Assembly: GCA_038043445.1 (NCBI GenBank)
Contig: JBBTBY010000088.1
Coordinates: 1 to 39,616, forward strand
Reading direction: 5' to 3'
DNA from: Spirochaetota bacterium
Lineage (GTDB): Bacteria; Spirochaetota; Brachyspiria; Brachyspirales; JACRPF01
DNA: 39,616 bases
Below the pieces are notes generated by a model. The model made no database searches. It was given only the letters and a program-made list of their open reading frames with translations, and was not told the origin of the DNA. Below are positions 3,167-36,556 of the stretch, one piece after another (the stretch's first letter is position 1; every line of letters starts with the position of its first letter). The position numbers and the translations under genes were made by a program.

Positions 3167-4171
3167 ATGACGGCACGAGAGCGGAGCAAACGATTCATTG
3201 CCAATGATACCGTCGACCGTCCGCCGTTCCACCCCATTGTCATGCGCATCGCCGCGAAGCATGCGGGTATCCCGTACGGAAAATTCTGTACGGATGCGAA
3301 AAGCAAAGCCGTCGGTTACGTACGCTACGCGGACGATTTCGGCATGGACTGGGTCACCGTCATGTCCGACCCCTACACCGAAGCGACAGCGTTCGGTCTC
3401 CCGGTGGAATTCCCCGAGGACGATCTCCCGAAGGACACGGCGCATATCATCGAGAGCATTGCCGATATCGCACGCCTGAAAAAGCCGTCGGTGGAGAACA
3501 GTGCCCGTCCGATGGCGGCCGTCGATACGATACGCGAATATAAGAAGATGTCACGCGAGGAATTCATCGTCGGGTGGGTGGAGGGTCCTATGGCCGAGTA
3601 CGCCGACCTCCGCGGGCTGTCTTCTGCCTGTACCGATCTTATGGACGACCCGAAGGCAGTATGCGATGCGGCCGATATCATCAATGCCTTCGCGAAGGAA
3701 TTCGCTTCCGCACAGATAGCGGCGGGTGCCGACTGCATCGGCATCGGCGATGCGGCGTGTTCGCAGATAGGCCCCGACCTCTATCGTGAATTGTTCTTCC
3801 CGCGGGAAAAAGAGCTTGTCGATCATATCCATGCACAGGGTGCGCTCGCAAAGCTTCATATCTGCGGGAACACGACAGCGCTCCTGCCCGACATGATACG
3901 AACAGGCGCCGACATCATCGACGTCGATCATCTGGTGAAAGACATGTCAGCGTTCGCGCCGCTCCTCGGAAAGAAGCAGGTGTTCTCCGGCAACAGCGAC
4001 CCCGTCGCCGTTATCGAGCGCGGCGATGAGCGTGCAATACGCGAAAGCGTTGCATCGTGCTTTCAGGCCTCACGCGGACGCACGATAACATCAGCCGGAT
4101 GCGAGATACCGCCGGATGCGAGGGATGTTTCGATGAAGATCTATCGGGATGCGGCGTATTCGCTCAGATGA
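3167..4171 (+). CDS. Uroporphyrinogen-decarboxylase-like protein (MtaA/CmuA-type methyltransferase superfamily)
   Basis: A 334-residue cytoplasmic TIM-barrel protein of the URO-D superfamily, which includes HemE and corrinoid/coenzyme-M methyltransferases such as MtaA and CmuA. AAGGAG at 3155-3160 is well placed for the ATG at 3167, so the ATG at 3146 is less likely. It begins MTARERSKRFIANDTVDRPP, the usual N-terminal pattern of the non-HemE branch. HICGNT near residue 237 and the late SAGCEIPPDARD give the His-x-Cys...Cys set that binds zinc in MtaA-like enzymes. It is not near heme genes, so heme synthesis is unlikely. In carbohydrate loci its role is unknown; methyl-group transfer is a reasonable guess. 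A decayed copy of its 3' end lies at 4780-4836. Confidence 0.85.
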   Translation: MTARERSKRFIANDTVDRPPFHPIVMRIAAKHAGIPYGKFCTDAKSKAVGYVRYADDFGMDWVTVMSDPYTEATAFGLPVEFPEDDLPKDTAHIIESIADIARLKKPSVENSARPMAAVDTIREYKKMSREEFIVGWVEGPMAEYADLRGLSSACTDLMDDPKAVCDAADIINAFAKEFASAQIAAGADCIGIGDAACSQIGPDLYRELFFPREKELVDHIHAQGALAKLHICGNTTALLPDMIRTGADIIDVDHLVKDMSAFAPLLGKKQVFSGNSDPVAVIERGDERAIRESVASCFQASRGRTITSAGCEIPPDARDVSMKIYRDAAYSLR

Positions 4172-4567
4172 GACGCTGGGATCGACAGTAACGCGCCGGG
4201 AAGTCGGGAATATCGGTACCGAGCGGGATGGAACCGGGGGATAGGAGCGGGGACGGCTTGGGAACGAAGGTGATACGGCTTCAAAGCGGCTTCGCTTCAT
4301 GTTCGTACTGATGAACAGGTTATATCCGGACATGTTCATGCCCGCAGCTGCGTTATTCCACGCTGCCCTTGCGGCGGTATCGAGCGAACGCCAGGCATGG
4401 ACAAGCGTACGGAAACGACCCCTTAGAAGAAGCTGTTCCTGTGACCGTGCATCGCGGGGAGGGGTATAGGTCCGAACATAGTGAATGGACCTCCATCGCT
4501 GGAATATAAGGCCGCCCATACGGCCGGTCATACCGTCAACGAGTGCATTGAATCGAACTTTTGCCAT
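4091..4567 (-). CDS. Small conserved hypothetical protein (begins MAKVRFNALVDGMTGRMGG)
   Basis: A 158-residue protein whose first 90 residues resemble a family of small proteins starting MAKVKF..., with a GGxxF repeat-like start, a middle rich in Arg and Gln, and a conserved WRSLDTAARAAWNNAA block. The function of that family is not known to me; some relatives sit in prophage-like contexts. AAGGAG lies 7 bases before the ATG, which argues for a real start. The last 27 residues are encoded antisense to the end of the URO-D-like gene (81-base convergent overlap) and are low-complexity, rich in Arg, Pro and Ser. An original stop may have been lost. Confidence 0.65.
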   Translation of the reverse strand: MAKVRFNALVDGMTGRMGGLIFQRWRSIHYVRTYTPPRDARSQEQLLLRGRFRTLVHAWRSLDTAARAAWNNAAAGMNMSGYNLFISTNMKRSRFEAVSPSFPSRPRSYPPVPSRSVPIFPTSRRVTVDPSVSSERIRRIPIDLHRNIPRIRRYLASG

Positions 4568-4613
4568 AACAAGCTCCTTCGGGGTTTCGATAGGGGCAAA
4601 AATGTATCTCCCT

Positions 4614-4691
4614 CTATATAATTATTCTCCTGGACGGATACAGGGGGCTTTTTTTTACCCTATATGTAATTATACGAGTTGACGGATACAG
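4614..4691. repeat. Two tandem imperfect copies of a promoter-like unit
   Basis: Copy one spans 4614-4643 and copy two 4660-4691, roughly 48 bases apart. Each has CTATAT, a TAATTAT core, a variable gap of about six bases and then GACGGATACAG. On the minus strand each reads CTGTATCCGTC followed by an ATAATTA box, pointing toward the small protein gene starting at 4567. They could be twin promoters or operator sites; no standard -35 box is present. Confidence 0.45.
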
Positions 4692-4779
4692 CCTGAGGGC
4701 AAAACCGCGATTTCATGCAAATTTCGAGGGTAGATATTCACATGGGCCGCTTTCGTTGCGCTTTCCCGAAGCGGCTGCG

Positions 4780-4836
4780 CCATTCGGTCGCACGACAGTA
4801 TCAGCCGAATGTGTGATACCCCCGGATATGTCGGAT
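4780..4836 (+). pseudogene. Decayed fragment of a URO-D-like gene (3' end)
   Basis: The plus-strand frame reads PFGRTTVSAECVIPPDMSD and aligns with GRTITSAGCEIPPDARD at the end of the intact URO-D-like gene at 3167-4171, including the zinc-site Cys and the IPPD. The conserved glycine before the Cys has become Glu and nothing upstream is open and homologous. The rest of the 4568-4984 gap holds the tandem repeat (4614-4691), a promoter (4873-4900) and a 12-codon ORF (4921-4959). Confidence 0.5.
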
Positions 4837-4872
4837 GCAACGCATTCACTTGACATAGAGAATCTGCCGGAT

Positions 4873-4900
4873 TTGACAGGAATTCGGCGGGTGGTATACT
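4873..4900 (+). promoter_or_regulatory. Strong sigma-70 promoter upstream of the lipoprotein gene
   Basis: TTGACA at 4873-4878, 16-base spacer, TATACT at 4895-4900. Start of transcription would be near 4907, giving a leader of about 78 bases that contains a 12-codon ORF before the lipoprotein ATG at 4985. Confidence 0.6.
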
Positions 4901-4920
4901 GACGGGGATAGGAGGAGGCG

Positions 4921-4959
4921 ATGGTGGCGAATGAAAACTCCTTCACGTGCGTGAAATAA
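4921..4959 (+). CDS. 12-codon leader or truncated ORF (MVANENSFTCVK)
   Basis: GGAGG at 4911-4915 is ideally spaced from the ATG at 4921, and a promoter lies just upstream, yet the frame ends after 12 codons. It stops close to where base composition becomes AT-rich. It may be the stub of a gene whose body was replaced by the lipoprotein gene, or a leader peptide. The start resembles the sequence at 14470-14490, where a frame begins MAANKNPFYR next to the intact AraC paralogue. Confidence 0.3.
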   Translation: MVANENSFTCVK

Positions 4960-4984
4960 TCTTCAGCGCACAGGGAAATTGAAA

Positions 4985-5554
4985 ATGAGAAATATCATAT
5001 TTCCATGTATCATTTCAACGCTGATGATTATCGGTATCGGGTGCTATTCCGGACGAGCCATTTTAAAAAAGTTATACTTTGTTAACAGCACAAATGCTAC
5101 GATTCTTAAGGTAGTTAATAATAATCAATTGCAGATCAGTTGTGTGGTATTATCGGTATATTCTACTCATTCAGAAACGTCATTATGGGTAATAAATAAA
5201 ACGGATAAGAAAATGACTTTGCTTAAATTGAAATGGACTTATTCGTTCAAAGGTGTTGATCTAATAAACACATACACAAACCATAACAAATATAATAATC
5301 CGTATGATAATCCCACGCTGCTTTTTACATTATCTGAATATGGCAGTACAAGAATTATTAATGGAGAAAAAGAAGATAAAAATGAGGCAATATTCAGACA
5401 TCAGTCAGACTTAAAAACGAAAGATTTATCAAAAGATGATATAGTTCATGCTCAAGTTCAATTAACATATGTTACTGAAAAGATAACTAATACTGTATCC
5501 GGGAAATTCGATATGAAATGTAAAGAAATTACTAAGATGGTTGAATTGCCGTAA
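4985..5554 (+). CDS. AT-rich putative lipoprotein of unknown function
   Basis: A 189-residue protein starting MRNIIFPCIISTLMIIGIGC. The hydrophobic stretch followed by GIGC fits a lipobox, with lipid attachment at Cys20, so it is probably membrane-anchored outside the cytoplasm. The ATG at 4985 is preferred to the TTG at 4979. The remainder is polar, rich in Asn, Lys and Thr, with predicted beta-strands and no motif I recognise. Its codons are strongly AT-rich (AAA, AAT, ATA, TTA), quite unlike every neighbour, which suggests recent acquisition from a low-GC donor. It lies between a decayed URO-D fragment and a truncated AraC gene. Confidence 0.7.
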   Translation: MRNIIFPCIISTLMIIGIGCYSGRAILKKLYFVNSTNATILKVVNNNQLQISCVVLSVYSTHSETSLWVINKTDKKMTLLKLKWTYSFKGVDLINTYTNHNKYNNPYDNPTLLFTLSEYGSTRIINGEKEDKNEAIFRHQSDLKTKDLSKDDIVHAQVQLTYVTEKITNTVSGKFDMKCKEITKMVELP

Positions 5555-5705
5555 GCGGCAAACCAAATTCATTGCGCCTCCGTGGCGCGCGCATTGCTGC
5601 GGCTTAGTGCCGCACGGTATATTGAACCTTCGAGGGCTCCTCCTGAACAGCCAGAACTTAAGTTAACATACATCCCGATAGCGAAGATGCCCACTTCAAT
5701 CTTTT

Positions 5706-6311
5706 TTATCGCAGTACGTTCGCCTTCCGATAGTCCGCCGGTGAAATCCCCACATGCTTCTTGAAAAAACGTGAGAAATAGAATTCGTCGGAGAAGCCGA
5801 GATCGTGCGCGATATCCTTCACTTTTTTTTCAGTGCCGTGCACTTCCTCTTTCGCGCGGGAGGCGATGCGCTCCATGAGGTACTGCTTAAGCGATATGCC
5901 GACATCATGCCTGAAATTCTTCACGAGCGTCGACTCTGAGGCGCCGATGAGCGCGGCAAGTTCTTTCGTCGTCGTTGCCAGCGAACATCGCTCATCGATG
6001 GCGGAGAAAAGCCGCCGATATTTCTCGCCGATGGCGATACGTTTGCGCATGGTATTGACATCGGTATGCACGAAGGGCCCTATGGCCGAAAGGAGCATCG
6101 CCTGTGCTTCCAGCATATCGCCCATGCGTCTGCTCTGTGCCTTCACGGCAAGCGTCTCGAAGAATGCGCGGTCGTCCGTGCGCGTGAGGCAGTCGTTCAC
6201 GCCGTCGAAAATATCCTTCCCCGGATAGAGCTCGAGACGGAAATGAAAGAACATCTTTTCCAGACGGCTTTCACAGACATAATCGAAGAAGGAATTGACC
6301 GTCGTCGGCAT
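5706..6311 (-). CDS. N-terminally truncated AraC-family regulator (paralogue of 14497-15306)
   Basis: About 201 residues with the same sequence as the C-terminal three quarters of the AraC protein at 14497-15306; by eye roughly 85% identical from TTVNSFFDYVCESRLEK to the end. It keeps both helix-turn-helix units (ATTTKELAALIGASESTLVKN and VKDIAHDLGFSDEFYFSRFF). Similarity ends abruptly at 6312, and the first 70 or so residues of the cupin-like sensor are missing, replaced by sequence running into the AraC gene at 6364-7254. The frame is open to 6443, but the starts at 6311 or 6332 are the sensible ones. It may be translated behind the upstream AraC gene or be a pseudogene. Without a sensor domain it would be constitutive or act as a competitor. 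Confidence 0.6.
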   Translation of the reverse strand: MPTTVNSFFDYVCESRLEKMFFHFRLELYPGKDIFDGVNDCLTRTDDRAFFETLAVKAQSRRMGDMLEAQAMLLSAIGPFVHTDVNTMRKRIAIGEKYRRLFSAIDERCSLATTTKELAALIGASESTLVKNFRHDVGISLKQYLMERIASRAKEEVHGTEKKVKDIAHDLGFSDEFYFSRFFKKHVGISPADYRKANVLR

Positions 6312-6363
6312 GTCTGGAGCGTCGATGAGCATCCGGGCGGATATATACGCCGGAGAAATGTCC

Positions 6364-7254
6364 CTATCCGCTGCGTGAGCCGCCTGCAGCGGAAAAACTG
6401 CCGGGCAGCATCGTTGTGCGGTAGTGTTTCGGCCGTGCGCCATAGTTCTGCTTAAACTTGTCTGAAAAGTGATTGTAGTGTGAAAACCCCGATTCTTGCG
6501 CGATATCCCTGATCGTTGCTGATGAAAAGAGCAGCAGATCGGCCGCGCGCGACAGCCGCTTTTTGATTATATAGTCGGCGGGAGGGCAGCCCATGACGGT
6601 ATGGAATAGCCTTATATAGTAGCTTTTATTCAGACCGGCAATGCCGGCGAGACAGGTGATAGTGATCTTGTGCGGAAAATTTCTGTCGATATAGTGCACG
6701 GTCCTCATTATACGATCGTCGTTTAAATCGCTGCTGTCCGTGTTTACCCCTGGGGACTGGGATATCATGGAGAAGATATAGAGAAGAAGTCCGGTGAGCG
6801 GCACCGGTGAGCGGATAAAGGAGCTGTTCACTGCACGGAGCAGGAGGGTGAACGCGTTCTCGATCTCACTCTGGAACAGCGAACACGACAGCACGTTCGG
6901 CGTATTGATATGCCGAAGCAGCTCGTCACTGAGATGACATTTCAGGTGCAGCACGACGCATCGCTCCTTTGCATACTTCGGAAAGACGAAGGAGTGCTGC
7001 GTGTGCGGCGGCACCGTGATGAGCATTCCCGGCGCCATGGCGTATTCCCGCTTCATGACGGACGCCCGGCAGTGCCCGCGGTAGAGGTACATGAGATGAT
7101 GATGATCGTGCGTGTGCATATCCGCCGAAAGGTTCACCCTGTTGGTGATTTTGTACGCGAAAAGTATCTTCTGCACGATGGATGCCTCGGCGTAATAGTA
7201 CACGCGGCGGCGGCGGATGTCAATATTTGTCATGTTTTTATCACTCTGTGTCAT
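6364..7254 (-). CDS. AraC-family regulator with N-terminal cupin sensor
   Basis: A 296-residue regulator. Residues about 30-110 form an AraC-type cupin (HTHDHHHLMYLYRGH, then PGMLITVPPHTQHSF), typical of sugar-sensing members. The C-terminal 100 residues hold two helix-turn-helix units (ITCLAGIAGLNKSYYIRLFH and IRDIAQESGFSHYNHFSDKFK) ending in GARPKHYR. The start is 7254 or 7233; neither has a strong ribosome-binding site. The gene diverges from the large LamG/toroid gene at 7330 across only 75 bases, and its start codon lies beside that gene's promoter, so it very probably controls that operon. The last residues after PKHYR (SFSAAGGSRSG) are unusual and lie near the junction with the truncated AraC gene. 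Confidence 0.88.
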   Translation of the reverse strand: MTQSDKNMTNIDIRRRRVYYYAEASIVQKILFAYKITNRVNLSADMHTHDHHHLMYLYRGHCRASVMKREYAMAPGMLITVPPHTQHSFVFPKYAKERCVVLHLKCHLSDELLRHINTPNVLSCSLFQSEIENAFTLLLRAVNSSFIRSPVPLTGLLLYIFSMISQSPGVNTDSSDLNDDRIMRTVHYIDRNFPHKITITCLAGIAGLNKSYYIRLFHTVMGCPPADYIIKKRLSRAADLLLFSSATIRDIAQESGFSHYNHFSDKFKQNYGARPKHYRTTMLPGSFSAAGGSRSG

Positions 7255-7283
7255 TGACAGATGTTACGGGAAGAATGTACAAT
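7254..7283 (+). promoter_or_regulatory. Promoter of the 7330-14413 operon with overlapping inverted repeat
   Basis: TTGACA at 7254-7259, 18-base spacer, TACAAT at 7278-7283, predicting a transcript start near 7290 and a leader of about 40 bases. An inverted repeat ACAATA-acaca-TATTGT (7279-7295) covers the -10 box and start point and may be a regulator site. Confidence 0.6.
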
Positions 7284-7329
7284 AACACATATTGTTCGGA
7301 CGATCCGCTAAAAGCATCGGGAGAGCAGC

Positions 7330-10300
7330 ATGGCAAAGTACGGGCTGATGTCGTTTGTGGTCATACTGACAGCGTCGTATCATCTCTCTGCGGATGCGTC
7401 TCCGTTCGCGCGCTTTACCTTCGATGAAGGTTCCGGCGCTGTGCTCAACGATGCTCTGGGCACGTTCAACGGAACGATATCCGGCGATGCTGTTTTGGTG
7501 CAGAACATACAGGGAAAAGCGCTCGCGTTCGGCGCCAAGGGCGGCTCGGCACGCATCGGCAACATCTCGGCGAAGATCAGGAACGGATTCACCTTCACCG
7601 CTTGGGTAAAAAAGACCTTCCAGGACGGCGGTGATTCGAAGATCATCTTCGGGTCATTACGGGCATGGAAGCCCGGCAGTGCATCGTTCCTTACATGGAT
7701 AGATGACAAGACGGGCTCGCTTCGCTGCGGTGTGCAGGGGGCATCATCGTTCAAGGCAATCGGCGTGCCTATATCGGAGCAGTTCGGCGCATGGTTCCAC
7801 CTTGCATTCACCTATGACAGAACGGCGATACGCATCTATGTCAACGGCGTGCAGAGGGCAAGCGATGCGTTCGCCGAGGAGGTCTCCCCCTCGGACTTCT
7901 GGCAGTTCGCTTCGGTGAACAACTCCATCGCCCTGGACGAAGCATGCCTCTACGGCGCTGCGCTCACGGCGGACGAAGTGCGCGCAGCATTCGCGGCGGA
8001 AGCGCCTCTTGCTTTAACCGAGGAAGAAATGAAACGAAAGATCGCAGCGGCAAGTGCGTTGACAGAGCCGAAAGCGGCATCACCGGCGGTGCCGGAACCG
8101 GCAGCCCCCGTGTACACTGCGCTGAAAGCACCGGCGATCACAACGCATCTTGTGAAGGATGGCGCACCTGCCGCCGCTATCGTTGCCCCGGCGTCGAAGA
8201 TGTATGATGATCTCGCCCGCATGCTGCAGAAGAGCATCGCCGACAGAACGGGGGTAACGATACCGATCATAACCGATGAGCCGACGGCATGGACACTGCC
8301 GATACAGCGAAGCCTTTTTGTGCTCGGCAACCGCTCGACAAGCCGCATCATCGAGGAGCTTTACAACAGATTCTATACCCTACTCGATCTCGCGTATCCC
8401 GGCAAAGGCGGTTATGAGGTCCGAAGCCTTCATGATCCTTTCGGTAACGGGCACAACATCATCTTCGTCGGCGGCAGCGATAAGGAAGGCGTTGCCGCTG
8501 CGGCGAACGAGTTCATCGCTATGGTGAACGGCATGGCCGGCGGACGCGACCTCACTGTCGGTCATTGCATGCGCATACGGCTGGGACAGGGCATCGAAGT
8601 CCCTTCGGAAGTGAAGGACGTCGAACTCTGGGATGCATCGAAAAATTACCGTTCGCAGGGGTACTTCGGCTGGAACAGCATCAGCAAGCTCATGGCGATG
8701 TATTACATGACCGGCAATGAGCGCTTCGCACGGGAGATGCTGCGCTATGCGTTCCCCGATGCGAAGGCCAAGCGGGAGATCTCCGAGCTTGACGGCGAAC
8801 TTATCGAGAACAAGGACGACCCCGTCGGCGGATCATACCATTACGGCGCGCACTACATGATGCTCTTCTGGGATCTCATCGAAGAAAGCCCCGTCTTCAC
8901 CGATGAGGAGCGCCTCAAGATGGCGAACGCCTTTTCGCGGCAGTTCCTCTGGCATGTCAAACCGCCGGGAGGCGCGTACATGGGGAATTGGGGCGCCGGG
9001 ATCTATTCGCTTACCGAGAAGCCCGGTATGGTCGGCGATCGTCACGGCCAATGGACCGCCATATCCATCTATGTGCTCGCGCGCTATTTCCAGAAATATT
9101 ACCCGTCGCCGATGTGGGCGCAGTGTCTGCGCGGGGTCAGCAATTATTTCGCTCCGCTCGATCGCGGCCTTTTGGGCGAAGGAAGCCTCTCGCAGTGGTA
9201 TATAACCTCCATTGCGCCGCTCTTCACCTATTTCCTTCTCTCGGGGGAGCGCGCGTCGGTGGCGAACGGCGCACTTGCCGTGCATGCCCGGGGTCTTGAA
9301 GCACTGCTCTCCGGGAAGGACGGCGACCCGAACCTTGATTGCGCCGGCATCGCAGATATGGGCAAACTCGCGTATCTGCTCAACGATGGGAAATACCTTG
9401 AATACCAGCGGCGGATATTGTTCGCTGCCGACAAATTCCGCATCGGGCAGTCGTTCGTTCCCGATGAACGCCTCACGCCGCGGCAGCCGACCGATATCGC
9501 CGGCACATGGCTCGTACACCGCCTTCCCGAACCGCGCTGGCGCGAACGTAATACCGGATTCCCGTTCACCAATGCCTTCCTCTGGGCGTCATACCGCACT
9601 ATGCCCGATGATGCCGGTGATTTCATAAAGGTGCGCGGTGCGAACACTTCGGCGCGCAATCCGTATCACACGTTCCTCATCGACGATCTGCGCATCGACG
9701 GATACACGCTGCTTTCGGGTTTCGGCAATCAGCTCACCGTGTGGATCGACGGGATGTTCGACAAGGAGGTAACCCAGGACGCAGCGCTCATATCCTTCGC
9801 CGGTTCGATGCGCCATGCCGCCGTGACGGCTGAAGTAGTGAAGATGCCCTTCTCCAGCTGGCGGCGCACAGTGTTCCAGCGGACGGGGAGCTATGCCCTC
9901 ATCGTCGACGATCTCTCCTTTCGGCGAACGAGCGATGCCGCTGAGGTGAAATTCGGCTGGAGCGGCCCGCTCAAGAAGGAAGCGCCGGGGGTTCTGCGCT
10001 GCAATGCCGTGAAAAGCAGTACCGGTCCGGTCGCCGGAAAGACGGTGATCTCTGCGTTCAACGCGCGGTATTCCGCAAGCGATCCCGACACCAATATGGT
10101 CCGGCCGCTGCCGAGCTACGACATCGTGCTTTTGCGATCGCGGGATCCGGGCACCTGGTTCGAGATGACATTCACGCTCGATTCACGAACGCGCGGAGAC
10201 GGCTTCCTTAACCTCCTGAACTTTCGCGACCGCGGCATCATGAAAATATTCCTCGACGGCAGGCTCATCAGCGCGGAGTATGACCACTATGCCCCCGACA

Positions 10301-12231
10301 TCGCGATGAACGGCGTGCCGCTCGGTGCCGTCGATTGTGCTGCGGGGGAACATACCATCCGCTTCGAGGTTACGGGAAAGAACAACGAGAGCTCAGGCTT
10401 GAGCATCGGCGTGGCGGGGCTTGCGTTCTACACCGATCCCTCGCTTATAACACGTGAGCGTGAGCTCGGCACCTTCAAGGTTATCGCCGCTGACGCGATG
10501 ACGACAAAGGACAGCAGCTTCGAATGGTTCGGTCCGGTCGAGAAGGGCGGCCGCAGGATATTCTTCTCGCTCATAGGCAAAGGCACACTGCTGCCGGGCG
10601 AGGTGCTTTCATGCACACGCCTCGAGACGAACGCCGCCGTCTTCGCTGCGCCCGAACCCGCGATAGCCTTCGCGGGCGAGTATAAAGGGAATGCGGGTGA
10701 GCTCATAATCCTGGGGAAAAGGCATCTCTACGGCAGGGGGATTCGCCTCGTCGGCAGATCGGAACCGCTCATACGCGCAGGGGCGCCGGCGGACATCTAC
10801 TGGGACTTCAACGAAGGAACGATGGATATCACGGCAGAGCAGCGGATGGAGCTTGCCCTCGCGCTTTCGAACGACAGCGTTCTCGTCGACGGCATGACCG
10901 TGGCGCCACAGAAGAAGGACGGACTCATGATGCTCATGCTCGCTGCGGGGCATCACACGGTGGCGCGCGCGTTCCTGCCCGATGCGCTCTTGGCATCGTA
11001 TTCCGGCAGGATAGAAAAAACGTTCGCCGATGCGCAGACGAAATCCCGTGCGGAACTCACGGCAGCGCCGTCACGCGCAGGGACGCCCGCGATGCGTGAG
11101 CTCTTCAATGCCGGTGCCGGTAAAAAAACATCGCGTCTCCTGTGCGCATCCTTCGCCGCTGCCGAATCCATCTGCACTATCGATGACAGGAACATCCGCG
11201 TGTTCTCCTCCGACGGACGCGAGCTTCGCACGCTCACGGCGGATGCCCCGGTGCGCGTGATACATCCCTGGAAGGAATATGATCTCCTCCTCGCCGGATG
11301 TGCGGACGAAAAGGTCATCGCTTTCGATATCGATTCTGGGGTTCGGAAATGGACATTCACTTCCGAAATGCCTCCGGAGGTGATCGCTGCGGCGAAGCAG
11401 TACTGGTTCAAGTCGACATACCCCGGCATCTACGGCATACACACCGGCGTGTTCCTTAACGGAGAAAGTCAGGCGTTCATCGGGAGTACCTGTACGCTCG
11501 AAATGCTCGACAGCGGCGGGAAACTCGTCAAGCGACTTCCCGTATTCTGGGGGCCGGGAACGGTGTTCAATATGCTCGACCGGTCCGACGGGAGCACCGA
11601 CCTCGTTTTTGCGCGCTACCCGAACGACGGAGACAGGCCGGCGGTGATAAACAGCAGAACACTGGCTACGACGCCGCGCAGCTACTACGCGTATCCCCCC
11701 GGTTTTACCGATATGGGCGTAGGCTGGGCGAACATGTACCGCAAGCATCTATTCATCGAGGATATGAACGGCGACGGAAAGAAAGAGGTGCTCTCGGACA
11801 TTAACGGCGTTTTTAACCGCATCGCCCTCTGGTCGTCCGACGGAGCGCCGCTCTTCAATGTGAATTTCGGTCCGGGGGATGTCGCCGATAATATACGCGA
11901 TCTGGACGTCGGCGATCTTGACGGCGATGGGAAAAAGGAGATCATCACGGCTACCTTCCGCGGCATCCTGCTTGTGATGGACCATACGCTTGAGAAGGTC
12001 TGGTCAAAGCGGCTTGCAAGCCCGGCAACCGCGCTGAAATATATGCCGTCATCGGGCGGTCCCGTCATCGTTGTCGCCTGCGAGGACGGTTCGGTGCTGA
12101 CATGCAATGCGCGCGGGGAGATCACTGCCGCCGGCACGGTCATCGGAAGGCCCATCGGCATCGACGCGATCGCACAGGGCGTGGTCGTCGCGACCGAGAA
12201 TGGGAATGTAAAGGGATTTGCTATACACTGA
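7330..12231 (+). CDS. Secreted giant multidomain protein: LamG, alpha-glucuronidase-type N-domain, alpha/alpha toroid, FG-GAP-like repeats
   Basis: A 1633-residue exported protein; GGGAG precedes the ATG at 7330 and residues 1-23 form a signal peptide. Domains by eye: LamG/concanavalin-like fold (about 24-230, starting FARFTFDEGSGAVLND, with WFHLAFTYD and IYVNG); an Ala/Pro linker; a domain like the N-terminal domain of alpha-glucuronidases and other sugar hydrolases (about 261-405, IPIITDEPTAW then IIFVGGSDKEG); an alpha/alpha barrel (about 430-720, GGSYHYGAHYMMLFWDL, NWGAGIYSL); a beta-sandwich region like heparinase II/III-type lyases (about 740-1250); and a C-terminal propeller with calcium-loop motifs DMNGDGKKE (1478) and DLDGDGKKE (1529). 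Polysaccharide lyase or hydrolase activity is plausible but no active site is assigned. First gene of an operon with an SGNH hydrolase and an oxidoreductase. Confidence 0.8.
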   Translation: MAKYGLMSFVVILTASYHLSADASPFARFTFDEGSGAVLNDALGTFNGTISGDAVLVQNIQGKALAFGAKGGSARIGNISAKIRNGFTFTAWVKKTFQDGGDSKIIFGSLRAWKPGSASFLTWIDDKTGSLRCGVQGASSFKAIGVPISEQFGAWFHLAFTYDRTAIRIYVNGVQRASDAFAEEVSPSDFWQFASVNNSIALDEACLYGAALTADEVRAAFAAEAPLALTEEEMKRKIAAASALTEPKAASPAVPEPAAPVYTALKAPAITTHLVKDGAPAAAIVAPASKMYDDLARMLQKSIADRTGVTIPIITDEPTAWTLPIQRSLFVLGNRSTSRIIEELYNRFYTLLDLAYPGKGGYEVRSLHDPFGNGHNIIFVGGSDKEGVAAAANEFIAMVNGMAGGRDLTVGHCMRIRLGQGIEVPSEVKDVELWDASKNYRSQGYFGWNSISKLMAMYYMTGNERFAREMLRYAFPDAKAKREISELDGELIENKDDPVGGSYHYGAHYMMLFWDLIEESPVFTDEERLKMANAFSRQFLWHVKPPGGAYMGNWGAGIYSLTEKPGMVGDRHGQWTAISIYVLARYFQKYYPSPMWAQCLRGVSNYFAPLDRGLLGEGSLSQWYITSIAPLFTYFLLSGERASVANGALAVHARGLEALLSGKDGDPNLDCAGIADMGKLAYLLNDGKYLEYQRRILFAADKFRIGQSFVPDERLTPRQPTDIAGTWLVHRLPEPRWRERNTGFPFTNAFLWASYRTMPDDAGDFIKVRGANTSARNPYHTFLIDDLRIDGYTLLSGFGNQLTVWIDGMFDKEVTQDAALISFAGSMRHAAVTAEVVKMPFSSWRRTVFQRTGSYALIVDDLSFRRTSDAAEVKFGWSGPLKKEAPGVLRCNAVKSSTGPVAGKTVISAFNARYSASDPDTNMVRPLPSYDIVLLRSRDPGTWFEMTFTLDSRTRGDGFLNLLNFRDRGIMKIFLDGRLISAEYDHYAPDIAMNGVPLGAVDCAAGEHTIRFEVTGKNNESSGLSIGVAGLAFYTDPSLITRERELGTFKVIAADAMTTKDSSFEWFGPVEKGGRRIFFSLIGKGTLLPGEVLSCTRLETNAAVFAAPEPAIAFAGEYKGNAGELIILGKRHLYGRGIRLVGRSEPLIRAGAPADIYWDFNEGTMDITAEQRMELALALSNDSVLVDGMTVAPQKKDGLMMLMLAAGHHTVARAFLPDALLASYSGRIEKTFADAQTKSRAELTAAPSRAGTPAMRELFNAGAGKKTSRLLCASFAAAESICTIDDRNIRVFSSDGRELRTLTADAPVRVIHPWKEYDLLLAGCADEKVIAFDIDSGVRKWTFTSEMPPEVIAAAKQYWFKSTYPGIYGIHTGVFLNGESQAFIGSTCTLEMLDSGGKLVKRLPVFWGPGTVFNMLDRSDGSTDLVFARYPNDGDRPAVINSRTLATTPRSYYAYPPGFTDMGVGWANMYRKHLFIEDMNGDGKKEVLSDINGVFNRIALWSSDGAPLFNVNFGPGDVADNIRDLDVGDLDGDGKKEIITATFRGILLVMDHTLEKVWSKRLASPATALKYMPSSGGPVIVVACEDGSVLTCNARGEITAAGTVIGRPIGIDAIAQGVVVATENGNVKGFAIH

Positions 12232-13394: not shown

Positions 13395-14413
13395 ATGCGG
13401 CGCGTACGGGGAAAAAGCTTGTGTTTTGTTCCATCGGCGCAGGTTCACTGTCGCGCAGTGCGCATGGACCGGCGCTGAAAGCGCTTGCCGCCGAGCGCGA
13501 TGATCTTGTCCTTGCCGCAGTTGCGGGGCTTGACCGCCCTGCCGTCGAGGAATACGCGGACGACTTCGGCTATCGAAAAGCGTATACTGAATATCATGAA
13601 ATGATCGACCAGGAAAAGCCCGATGCTGTCAGTGTTATCGTGCCGGTGGAGCATACTTGTGCGGTAGCATGCGACGTCCTCGCGCGGGGCATTCCGGTCA
13701 TCATGGAAAAACCGCCGGGCAAGGATGCCGGGGAGACGGAACGCATCATTGAGACCGCACGCATGCACGGCGTAAAGAACATGGTCGCATTCAACCGGCG
13801 GCACATGCCGATCATCCGGCGCATGAAGGATATTCTTTCCGCCGCTATGCCGGAGGATATCCATTTCATTCGTCTCGATTTTTACCGCCACGCCCGTGCT
13901 GATGCCGATTTCTCCACGACGGCCATACACGGCATCGACACGGTTCGTGTGCTCGCCCGTTCGGGCATTGCACAGTGTGCTCTTGATTACCGCCCGACAG
14001 GGGTTACTGCCGGTGTTGATGATATATTCGTGCACGGCACGTTCGATTCAGGAGCGCGATTTTCCATGGCCTTTCTCCCGATGGCGGGAACGACCATTGA
14101 GCGCATCACGGTCTCGCTGAAAGATGCTACGTATATCGCACAGCTGCCGGTTTGGAACGGTACTGACGCCCCCGGCAGCATCGTGCGTCTTGGTAAAAGG
14201 GCGGAGATGGTCTGGAGCGGGGACGATGGCAGCGAGTCGACGGAGATGTTCCGCTCGAACGGCTTCTATCACGAACACCGTGCGTTCATCGAGGCGCTTG
14301 TCGAGAACAGATCGATCGAGGATGATGCAGCAAGCGTGCTTGAGTCGGTTGTGCTTGCCGATCGGATACGATGCCGGGCGCGCGCATACTCCCGTGACAA
14401 GCTGCAACGTTGA
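13391..14413 (+). CDS. Gfo/Idh/MocA-family oxidoreductase
   Basis: A 340-residue cytoplasmic NAD(P)-dependent sugar or inositol dehydrogenase-type protein. The ATG at 13391 overlaps the stop of the SGNH gene (ATGA), which indicates translational coupling and is preferred to the ATG at 13376. The Rossmann part has CSIGAGSLSRSAHGPAL near residue 13, and the family signature EKPPGKDAGE follows near 107 with the usual Lys. FNRRHMP marks the start of the C-terminal substrate domain. These enzymes oxidise or reduce sugars, and some act with NAD+ in glycoside cleavage by elimination. Its place behind two exported enzymes suggests it handles an imported product. It ends 83 bases from the convergent AraC gene. 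Confidence 0.88.
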   Translation: MNAARTGKKLVFCSIGAGSLSRSAHGPALKALAAERDDLVLAAVAGLDRPAVEEYADDFGYRKAYTEYHEMIDQEKPDAVSVIVPVEHTCAVACDVLARGIPVIMEKPPGKDAGETERIIETARMHGVKNMVAFNRRHMPIIRRMKDILSAAMPEDIHFIRLDFYRHARADADFSTTAIHGIDTVRVLARSGIAQCALDYRPTGVTAGVDDIFVHGTFDSGARFSMAFLPMAGTTIERITVSLKDATYIAQLPVWNGTDAPGSIVRLGKRAEMVWSGDDGSESTEMFRSNGFYHEHRAFIEALVENRSIEDDAASVLESVVLADRIRCRARAYSRDKLQR

Positions 14414-14496
14414 AAATGAAGATACTCATCACTTCGAAACAGTAACTGCGAGAGCAGCTGCAGGCAGGCGGTGATGGCGGCGAATAAAAACCCTTT

Positions 14497-15306
14497 CTAT
14501 CGCAGTATATTCGCCTTCCGATATTCCGCCGGCGAAAGCCCCGCATGCTTTTTGAAGAAACGTGAGAAATAGAATTCGTCGGCAAAGCCGAGTGAACGTG
14601 CGATATCCTTGACCTTTCTGTCGGTACCGTGCACTTCCTCCTTGGCCCGGGAGGCTATGCGGTCCATGAGGTACTGCTTAAGCGATATACCGACATCATG
14701 CCGGAAATTCTTCACGAGCGTCGATTCAGAGGAACCGACAAGTACCGCAAGCTCTTTCGTCGTCGTCGCAAGCGAGCAGCGCTCATCGATCGCCGAGAAA
14801 AGCCGACGGTACTTCTCGCCCACGGCTATGCGTTTTCGCACATCGCGAACATCGGTCTTCACAAAGGGCGCTATGGCGGAAAGGAGCATCGACTCTGCCT
14901 CGAGCATATCGCCCATGCGCGTGCTCTCTGCCTTCGCCGCAAGCGTCTCAAAGAACGATCGGTCCCCTTCGCGCGTGAGGCAGTCGTTCACGCCGTCGAA
15001 AATATCCTTTCCCGGATAAAGCTCGAGCCGGAAATGAAAGAATATCTTTTCCAGACGGCTCTCACAGACATAATCGAAGAAGGAATTGACCGTCGTCAGC
15101 ATGATGAGGTTTTTTTCGAAGCGCTTTTTTGTCCCGGCATTGCCGATATAGCCGTCACCGTCGAAAATGAAATAGAGGCGATTGGCCGGTGCGGGGTGGT
15201 TCATGAAACGCCATTCGGAACCGGCGCTCACACGCCCGGAGAGGATAAGCCTGAACGCGAGCGAATTGATGGTGCTTTCGAGCGATGAGAATGTGCTGTA
15301 TTCCAT
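14497..15306 (-). CDS. AraC-family regulator (intact paralogue)
   Basis: A 269-residue regulator with an N-terminal cupin-like sensor (about 15-130, LYFIFDGDGYI) and two C-terminal helix-turn-helix units (about 175-265) ending GLSPAEYRKANILR. GGGAAG is near the ATG at 15306. It is the full-length relative of the truncated gene at 5706-6311, and the two DNA sequences match closely until 15103. It is divergent from the GH29 fucosidase operon across 107 bases holding back-to-back promoters, so it most likely regulates that operon. The inducing sugar is unknown. Confidence 0.9.
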   Translation of the reverse strand: MEYSTFSSLESTINSLAFRLILSGRVSAGSEWRFMNHPAPANRLYFIFDGDGYIGNAGTKKRFEKNLIMLTTVNSFFDYVCESRLEKIFFHFRLELYPGKDIFDGVNDCLTREGDRSFFETLAAKAESTRMGDMLEAESMLLSAIAPFVKTDVRDVRKRIAVGEKYRRLFSAIDERCSLATTTKELAVLVGSSESTLVKNFRHDVGISLKQYLMDRIASRAKEEVHGTDRKVKDIARSLGFADEFYFSRFFKKHAGLSPAEYRKANILR

Positions 15307-15346
15307 GGCTTCCCGGTTCGTCCATGATTTCGCCCCGCTTCGTCTA

Positions 15347-15374
15347 TGGACAATGGGGGCGTTTGCCGTATATT
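15347..15374 (+). promoter_or_regulatory. Promoter of the GH29 operon
   Basis: TGGACA at 15347-15352, 16-base spacer, TATATT at 15369-15374, about 40 bases before the GH29 start. Immediately next to the oppositely directed AraC promoter. Confidence 0.45.
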
Positions 15375-15375
15375 C

Positions 15376-15403
15376 ATCGTACCGTAAAACATTCGTTCGT
15401 CAA
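15376..15403 (-). promoter_or_regulatory. Promoter of the AraC gene 14497-15306
   Basis: Minus strand: TTGACG (15403-15398), 16-base spacer, TACGAT (15381-15376). It gives a leader of about 60 bases before the ATG at 15306. The weak -10 box would suit an activator-dependent or autoregulated gene. Confidence 0.4.
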
Positions 15404-15413
15404 GGGAGATGCG

Positions 15414-16685
15414 ATGCGCACCTATTTCAATGATACGCGCGATTGGTTCATGAACAAACGCTTCGGACTTTTCGTGCATTGGGGCATCTATGCCGTGGGC
15501 GCGTGGCATGAGCAGCATCAGTTCCGGCTCGGCATGGCACGCGCGGAATATGCGCCGTTCATGAAGCAGTTCAACCCGAAACGATTCGACCCTGACACAT
15601 GGCTCGATATCATGCAGGAAGCGGGTATGGAATATCTCACCTTCACCACGAAGCACATCGACGGATTCTGCATGTGGGACACGAAGGCTACGGATTACAA
15701 CGTCATGCATACGCCGTACGGGAAAGATATTCTTCGTATGGTCGCCGACGCCTGCCATCGCAGGGATATCCCGCCCTGTCTCTATTACTCGGTGGCGGAT
15801 ATGCATCATCCGAATTATCCGAATGCGGGGCGGAGCTATGAACTCAGTGCGCCGGAAAAAGGCGATACGCCTGACGAAGAGAAATACATGGACTTCGTGA
15901 AGGCTCAGGTACGCGAGCTTTGTACCGATTACGGAGCGATACACGGCTTCTGGTGGGACGCGCATATGTTCGGACGCAAGGACCCGTCCGTCAATGCGAT
16001 GATACGCTCGCTTCAGCCGTTCGCCGTCATCGATGGGCGCGGCTTTGACGAAGGGGATTTCGCTACGCCGGAGCGCGACTGGGATGAGTCCGTGCATTCG
16101 ATGCGTTCGTTCACACGGCCGATCGAGGCGTGTCAGTCCGTCGGCAAGCAGAGCTGGGGTTATCGCGATTACGAGGATTTCTACAGCGACCGGCATCTCA
16201 TTGCGAGCATGGATAATATGTTCGCGAAGGGCGGGAATTATCTCCTCAATGTCGGCCCGAACGCGGACGGCGTCATAACGCAGGAGTATGCGGATATCGT
16301 GCGGCGCACCGGGGCGTGGTACAGGCGTGTGCGCGAGGCGTTCGAGGATACCAAGGTCATGCCGCTCAATGACGATACGAACATCATGATCACCCGACGC
16401 GGGAATACGCTCTATGTGCATCTCATAAGACCGCCTGAGACGAATGCCGTGATACTGCGCCCGCTCGATGTGATGCCGAAGAGCGCACGCATTCTCAATA
16501 CCGGCGAAGCGGCTTCCGTGCGCATTGAACTCCTCCCGTGGCATCACAAGGATAAAAAACCGTATCTGCGCATCGCAGATCTTCCGGTCAACGAGCACGC
16601 GAACACGGTGCTTGTCGTACGGCTTGATCTTGATACACTGCCGGAGAAGATCGAAACGATCGCGGCTGAGAACATCGTCGCATAG
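15414..16685 (+). CDS. Alpha-L-fucosidase, GH29 family
   Basis: A 423-residue retaining fucosidase. GGGAG precedes the ATG at 15414; longer frames to 15285 cross the promoter region. Family hallmarks are KRFGLFVHWGIYAVGAWHEQ near the N-terminus, TFTTKHIDGFCMWDT, GFWWDAH with nucleophile D182, and GGNYLLNVGPNADG. There is no signal peptide, so it probably acts in the cytoplasm on imported fuco-oligosaccharides. At 423 residues it has the catalytic barrel and a short C-terminal beta-domain only. It is first in an operon with a URO-D-like protein (8-base gap) and a GH71-like protein. GH29 also contains galactosidase-like members, so the exact sugar is not certain. Confidence 0.92.
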   Translation: MRTYFNDTRDWFMNKRFGLFVHWGIYAVGAWHEQHQFRLGMARAEYAPFMKQFNPKRFDPDTWLDIMQEAGMEYLTFTTKHIDGFCMWDTKATDYNVMHTPYGKDILRMVADACHRRDIPPCLYYSVADMHHPNYPNAGRSYELSAPEKGDTPDEEKYMDFVKAQVRELCTDYGAIHGFWWDAHMFGRKDPSVNAMIRSLQPFAVIDGRGFDEGDFATPERDWDESVHSMRSFTRPIEACQSVGKQSWGYRDYEDFYSDRHLIASMDNMFAKGGNYLLNVGPNADGVITQEYADIVRRTGAWYRRVREAFEDTKVMPLNDDTNIMITRRGNTLYVHLIRPPETNAVILRPLDVMPKSARILNTGEAASVRIELLPWHHKDKKPYLRIADLPVNEHANTVLVVRLDLDTLPEKIETIAAENIVA

Positions 16686-36523: not shown

Positions 36524-36556
36524 TATCCGGCATACCATGGAACAAGGGAGAACGCT

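Follow-up and report, generated by a model that had tools for sequence, protein, structure and literature searches.

A fragment of an AraC-family gene, bounded by two sharp breakpoints, is probably a young relic of a regulator that once worked. The fragment (5706-6311, minus strand) lies in a window of 39,616 bases, the whole of one contig (C88) of a Spirochaetota draft genome of 5.13 Mb (178 contigs, 97% complete). It has a transposase remnant at one of its breakpoints, a complete DNA-binding domain and a low dN/dS relative to an intact AraC-family paralogue of 269 aa at 14497-15306 (minus strand). We take it, with some confidence, to be a recent relic that lacks a promoter of its own and derives from an old duplicate of the intact gene, cut twice, with an IS91-family remnant at one cut. 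We favor this relic over a working sensor-less regulator, and the latter over a misassembly. The two copies would both have kept working through a long divergence, a rearrangement amid mobile-element debris would then have taken the promoter and codons 1-68 from one of them, and the cut copy would now be a young relic, its transcription, if any, coming by read-through from its neighbor. As a relic, the fragment would illustrate how a genome that has at least 150 AraC-type HTH domains cuts up and loses regulator genes.

The match to the intact paralogue ends abruptly at both ends

A repeat search aligned 5698-6312 with 14489-15103 without gaps and at a constant spacing of 8791, with two repeat blocks (5698-5997 with 14489-14788, 85%, and 6058-6312 with 14849-15103, 89%). 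The coding parts of the fragment and the intact copy differ at 91 of 606 nt, an identity of about 85%. The initial annotation had described a close DNA match to 14497-15306 that stops at 6312 (15103 in the other copy) and had read the stop as a recombination junction, and both points hold: the alignment is ungapped and its end is abrupt. When the two loci are compared in 20-nt steps at spacing 8791, the steps that start between 5700 and 6280 have an identity of 0.55-1.0, the mixed step at 6300 one of 0.65, and those at 6320 to 6400 one of 0.1-0.3, which places the first breakpoint at 6312-6313. On the other side, the steps at 5600 to 5680 have an identity of 0.2-0.3. Pairwise alignment thus gives an abrupt loss of similarity at both match ends, and a gradual decay is rejected, as identity falls inside one 20-nt step.

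Similarity past these ends is slightly over the shuffle mean and is not convincing. Aligning 6313-6700 with 15104-15420 gave a local alignment score of 23 (shuffle mean 18.4, maximum 26), which 11 of 200 shuffles equaled or exceeded, and 5301-5697 with 14101-14488 on the other flank also scored 23, with 7 of 200 shuffles as good. A diverged N-terminal part hidden in 6313-6700 is rejected as well, given the 11 shuffles as good and a translation that does not align with the family before residue 69.

The annotated rearrangement junction is well supported, and there are in fact two, one near 6312 and one near 5698. Only the 6312 end had been noted earlier, and the AraC match stops just as sharply about 8 nt past the stop codon (second breakpoint, 5695-5704). 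An assembly error, with distinct sequences joined at 6312 (or 5695-5704) and an intact second gene existing in the organism, would sit easily with a draft of 178 contigs and a fragment that is still free of stops. We consider it quite improbable, however: a DNA search of the genome with 15090-15410 returned itself as its one match, so there is no orphan 5' half, and 6290-6460 is unique in the genome, so no repeat at the 6312 junction invites a misjoin. At the protein level, neither a third close copy nor the lost 5' half appeared among 149 matches from the genome (of 221 candidates, 150 were scored).

The orthologue searches found matches in 2 of 31 genomes at an E value of 1e-30 or better and, across the phylum, in 4 of 392 genomes at 1e-35 or better, the genome itself being counted in each case. 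The best near-full-length match among the 58 loci of the contig search, a set that may omit records very near the window's genome, is 33% identical, and the best homologue found outside the genome itself is 42% identical. AraC-type regulators as a class are abundant here, with at least 150 HTH_18 domains in 5.1 Mb (150 of 257 candidates were scored, and all 150 passed the cut-off).

A probable IS91-family transposase remnant adjoins the second breakpoint

The sequence adjoining the second breakpoint (5616-5695, plus strand) appears to be left over from an IS91-family transposase gene, namely from its 3' end, with 81% DNA identity to C45:13719-13799, and 42 nt of it are 90% identical to C106:1003-1044. 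The C45 sequence is the end of a 425-aa open reading frame (ORF) with the domains Zn_Tnp_IS91 (PF14319, 2.3e-18) and Y2_Tnp (PF04986, 2.1e-13); the 80 nt in the window correspond to the last part of such a gene and hold neither domain. A weak tblastn-type match, with one stop, covers 5513-5683. The transposase similarity ends before the transposase stop codon, about 10 bases or less from the start of the AraC match. With this remnant at the sharp 5698 end and the break at 6312, the AraC piece thus has a breakpoint on either side.

The fragment has the look of a rearrangement scar of an ordinary kind, next to what remains of an old mobile element. It shares with truncated pseudogenes beside mobile-element debris a sharp cut, a lost promoter and a transposase remnant at the junction; unlike such pseudogenes, it has kept both its reading frame and its conserved residues. 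The ungapped match with abrupt ends and the transposase remnant at one of them argue for the relic. That the IS91-family element itself carried the AraC piece, through one-ended rolling-circle transposition, is very improbable indeed. The remnant adjoins the AraC match, and the dispersed repeat at 4869-4943 also follows the genome's two best-preserved transposase genes; yet IS91 elements carry along DNA on the ter side, and here the piece is on the opposite, 3' side of the remnant, and the transposase gene has lost its own 3' end at the junction, so that no element boundary is seen.

The fragment lacks most of the sensor barrel and keeps the DNA-binding domain

The fragment comprises codons 69-269 and the stop codon, in frame, and lacks residues 1-68 of 269, the front quarter of the protein and most of its sensor barrel. 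The initial annotation had the N-terminal sensor gone altogether. The loss of residues 1-68 bears this out in part, but the last strands and the helices ahead of the DNA-binding domain are still present in the sequence, and the fragment keeps the post-barrel helices and the whole two-HTH DNA-binding domain. PF12833, the two-HTH domain of the AraC/XylS family, is over the cut-off in both copies (3e-20 in the fragment, 8e-19 in the intact copy), and the HTH_18 score is 72.7 bits for the fragment against 68.2 for the intact copy. Among the conserved columns listed, the fragment equals the intact copy, the one exception being residue 88, at which neither copy follows the family. Codon 69, where the match begins, is a Met in both copies and usable as a start; this is a mild coincidence, since the intact gene has 7 Met among its 269 codons (counted by eye).

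In a structural model of the intact copy (16 sequences, mean pLDDT 90.4), strand segments at 17-28, 33-38, 42-56, 59-62, 67-71, 76-97 and 109-113 are followed by helices at 116-126 and 131-148 and then by eight further helices. In the PDB this model is matched best by chains of ToxT and Rns (E about 1e-10). Like ToxT, Rns and AraC, full-length AraC/XylS proteins with an N-terminal barrel, the intact copy combines a barrel and helices with a C-terminal two-HTH domain. The fragment differs from these in the absence of residues 1-68, missing four of the seven strand segments and having the fifth cut. Its own model (208 residues, from the ATG at 6332; mean pLDDT 83.4) recovers every one of the ten helices seen in the intact model; from residue 61 onward its block means are 82-96, falling to 74 in the last block. 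Over residues 1-60 the block means are 43-83 and there is a single strand of at least three residues, and the leftover barrel strands are likely to be unfolded in the fragment, as far as the model can tell. A full-length AraC sensor is thus not what the fragment has: the barrel is incomplete, no family alignment extends into the residues upstream, and the leftover strands are poorly defined in the model.

A few AraC/XylS members, MarA and SoxS for example, are given in PMC8470410 as consisting of the DNA-binding domain alone. The fragment is like MarA and SoxS in having a complete two-HTH domain and no complete sensor; it differs in its approximately 80 residues ahead of HTH_18 and in being a putative protein. 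It might accordingly encode a working sensor-less regulator, co-transcribed with the AraC-family gene beside it and binding the intact copy's sites without ligand as a constitutive activator or competitor, which is possible but not what we expect. The recognition helices would suit such a protein, being the same in both copies except at residue 255 (helix 194-205 has no differences, and in helix 244-255 residue 255 alone differs), as would the HTH_18 score of the fragment and the return of all ten helices in its model; the leftover barrel strands, likely unfolded, speak against it. A working fragment would give a natural example of a sensor-less regulator that emerged next to its own full-length paralogue and kept the recognition helices.

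In AraC, the helices before the DNA-binding domain serve dimer formation. One could imagine that a partial duplication made a sensor-less AraC protein, perhaps dimer-forming, that shares a transcript with an unrelated AraC gene, binds its parent's sites and couples two neighboring gene clusters without ligand; we think this rather unlikely.

Neutral decay since the duplication is excluded

The differences between the fragment and the intact copy fall 17, 13 and 61 on the first, second and third codon positions and amount to 29 amino-acid differences. The dN/dS between the copies is low by three methods, at 0.15 (NG86), 0.19 (LWL85) and 0.16 (YN00), and the fragment has no stop and no indel. 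The signs of a pseudogene (stops, frameshifts, raised dN/dS) are absent from it, though a very young relic would look alike.

We simulated neutral change with the intact sequence as ancestor (2000 runs per branch length, kappa 2), a simple model that is conservative in that all 29 differences are charged to the fragment. Had the fragment drifted freely since the duplication, its branch would measure about 0.2-0.275 changes per site, taken as half of dS or of the four-fold distance (0.43). At branches of 0.15, 0.2 and 0.275, 0 of 2000 simulated copies each had 29 or fewer amino-acid changes, and copies without a stop made up 5.6% at 0.2 and 3.2% at 0.275. A branch of 0.1 is hardly compatible, with 3.5% of copies at 29 or fewer changes, while at 0.05 the figure is 97%, with 44% free of stops. 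Neutral decay since the duplication is excluded, and so either the cut is recent compared with the duplication or selection still acts on the fragment; the simulations leave free drift only a late part of the fragment branch. Together with the low dN/dS, this confinement of drift supports the relic being a young one, although the low dN/dS is also what a sensor-less regulator in use would give.

Polarized against homologues (14 of 16, the near-duplicates L037 and L038 being dropped), 15 differences fall on the fragment side and 8 on the intact side, with 5 undecided (p 0.21), and the BLOSUM split is 14 to 13. The lean toward the fragment counts against a working regulator, but as a sequence pattern it appears compatible with relic and function alike and does not decide between them.

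The fragment has no apparent promoter of its own

Directly upstream of the fragment and on the same strand is AraC2, a full-length AraC-family gene (7254 to 6364, minus strand). The fragment had been said to abut this gene, which is nearly so: 51 nt separate the AraC2 stop (6364) from the breakpoint, and the fragment's longest ORF, which starts with an ATG at 6443, overlaps AraC2 in another frame. The in-frame candidate ATG starts are at 6443 (inside AraC2), 6332 and 6311, and none is preceded by a clear Shine-Dalgarno-like sequence by eye; the intact copy is also without a strong one. A promoter scan by a simple consensus test listed no minus-strand promoter-like site between 5019 and 7194. 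No terminator-like site is listed on the minus strand between the AraC2 stop and the fragment, which, with the shared strand, is in keeping with a co-transcribed regulator, and read-through from AraC2 is the evident route of any transcription of the fragment.

A comparison of the promoter regions of both loci for shared binding sites, suggested in the initial annotation, came out negative. Similarity to 15290-15420 is not significant for either 6313-6500 (189 of 200 shuffles score as well) or 7241-7340 (17 of 200). A shared operator is rejected for this reason and from the 7-mers, of which one is repeated within 15290-15420 and none within 7240-7340. This lack of similarity, like the missing Shine-Dalgarno-like sequence and promoter-like site, weighs against a sensor-less regulator acting at its parent's sites.

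We favor the relic also because the fragment has no Shine-Dalgarno-like start by eye and no promoter-like site of its own, and because the former barrel strands are ill-defined in the model. The intact frame, the conserved columns kept, the higher HTH_18 score and the Met at the match start count against the relic, as a working gene would show the same.

Dispersed repeats and possible polysaccharide-breakdown loci in the window

A dispersed repeat of about 75 nt (4869-4943, plus strand) takes 32 of the 37 genome matches to 4570-5720 and has at its start a strong pair of promoter-like boxes, TTGACA and TATACT, 16 nt apart. Repeats of this type lie downstream of the two IS91-type transposase genes that are best preserved (C45, C54), and on C3, C50 and C21 they come shortly after transposase 5' fragments. 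We interpret the repeat as the ori end of an IS91-type element that carries an outward promoter and exists in many copies with internal deletions; for ISCR1, PMC6218425 describes outward promoters shown on the oriIS side. In some copies the halves of the repeat are split by similar GC-rich, hairpin-like inserts (L020 1471-1600, L022 1137-1350, L024 1269-1450), and these inserts resemble a further repeat family, of REP type. The promoter-like half also has a divergent second copy elsewhere in the window, at 36528-36556 (minus strand).

Directly behind the repeat is an AT-rich ORF of 191 aa (4979-5554, plus strand), with about 30% G+C against 50-60% around it and no Pfam match, which is probably acquired DNA. 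An integron cassette is rejected for it, as the preceding repeat folds no better than shuffles and follows IS91-type transposase genes elsewhere. Just upstream of another ORF without a Pfam match (4091-4567, minus strand), 4573-4750 is 85% identical to C21:48316-48501 and in part 92% identical to C47:12584-12671.

Both full-length AraC genes described here have a divergent neighbor. AraC2 faces away from a gene for a 1633-aa protein (7330-12231, plus strand), which has a domain of the LamG type and matches the lambda-carrageenase propeller below the cut-off, and the intact copy from an alpha-L-fucosidase gene (probable start 15414). These genes suggest polysaccharide-breakdown loci, each with an AraC gene of its own.
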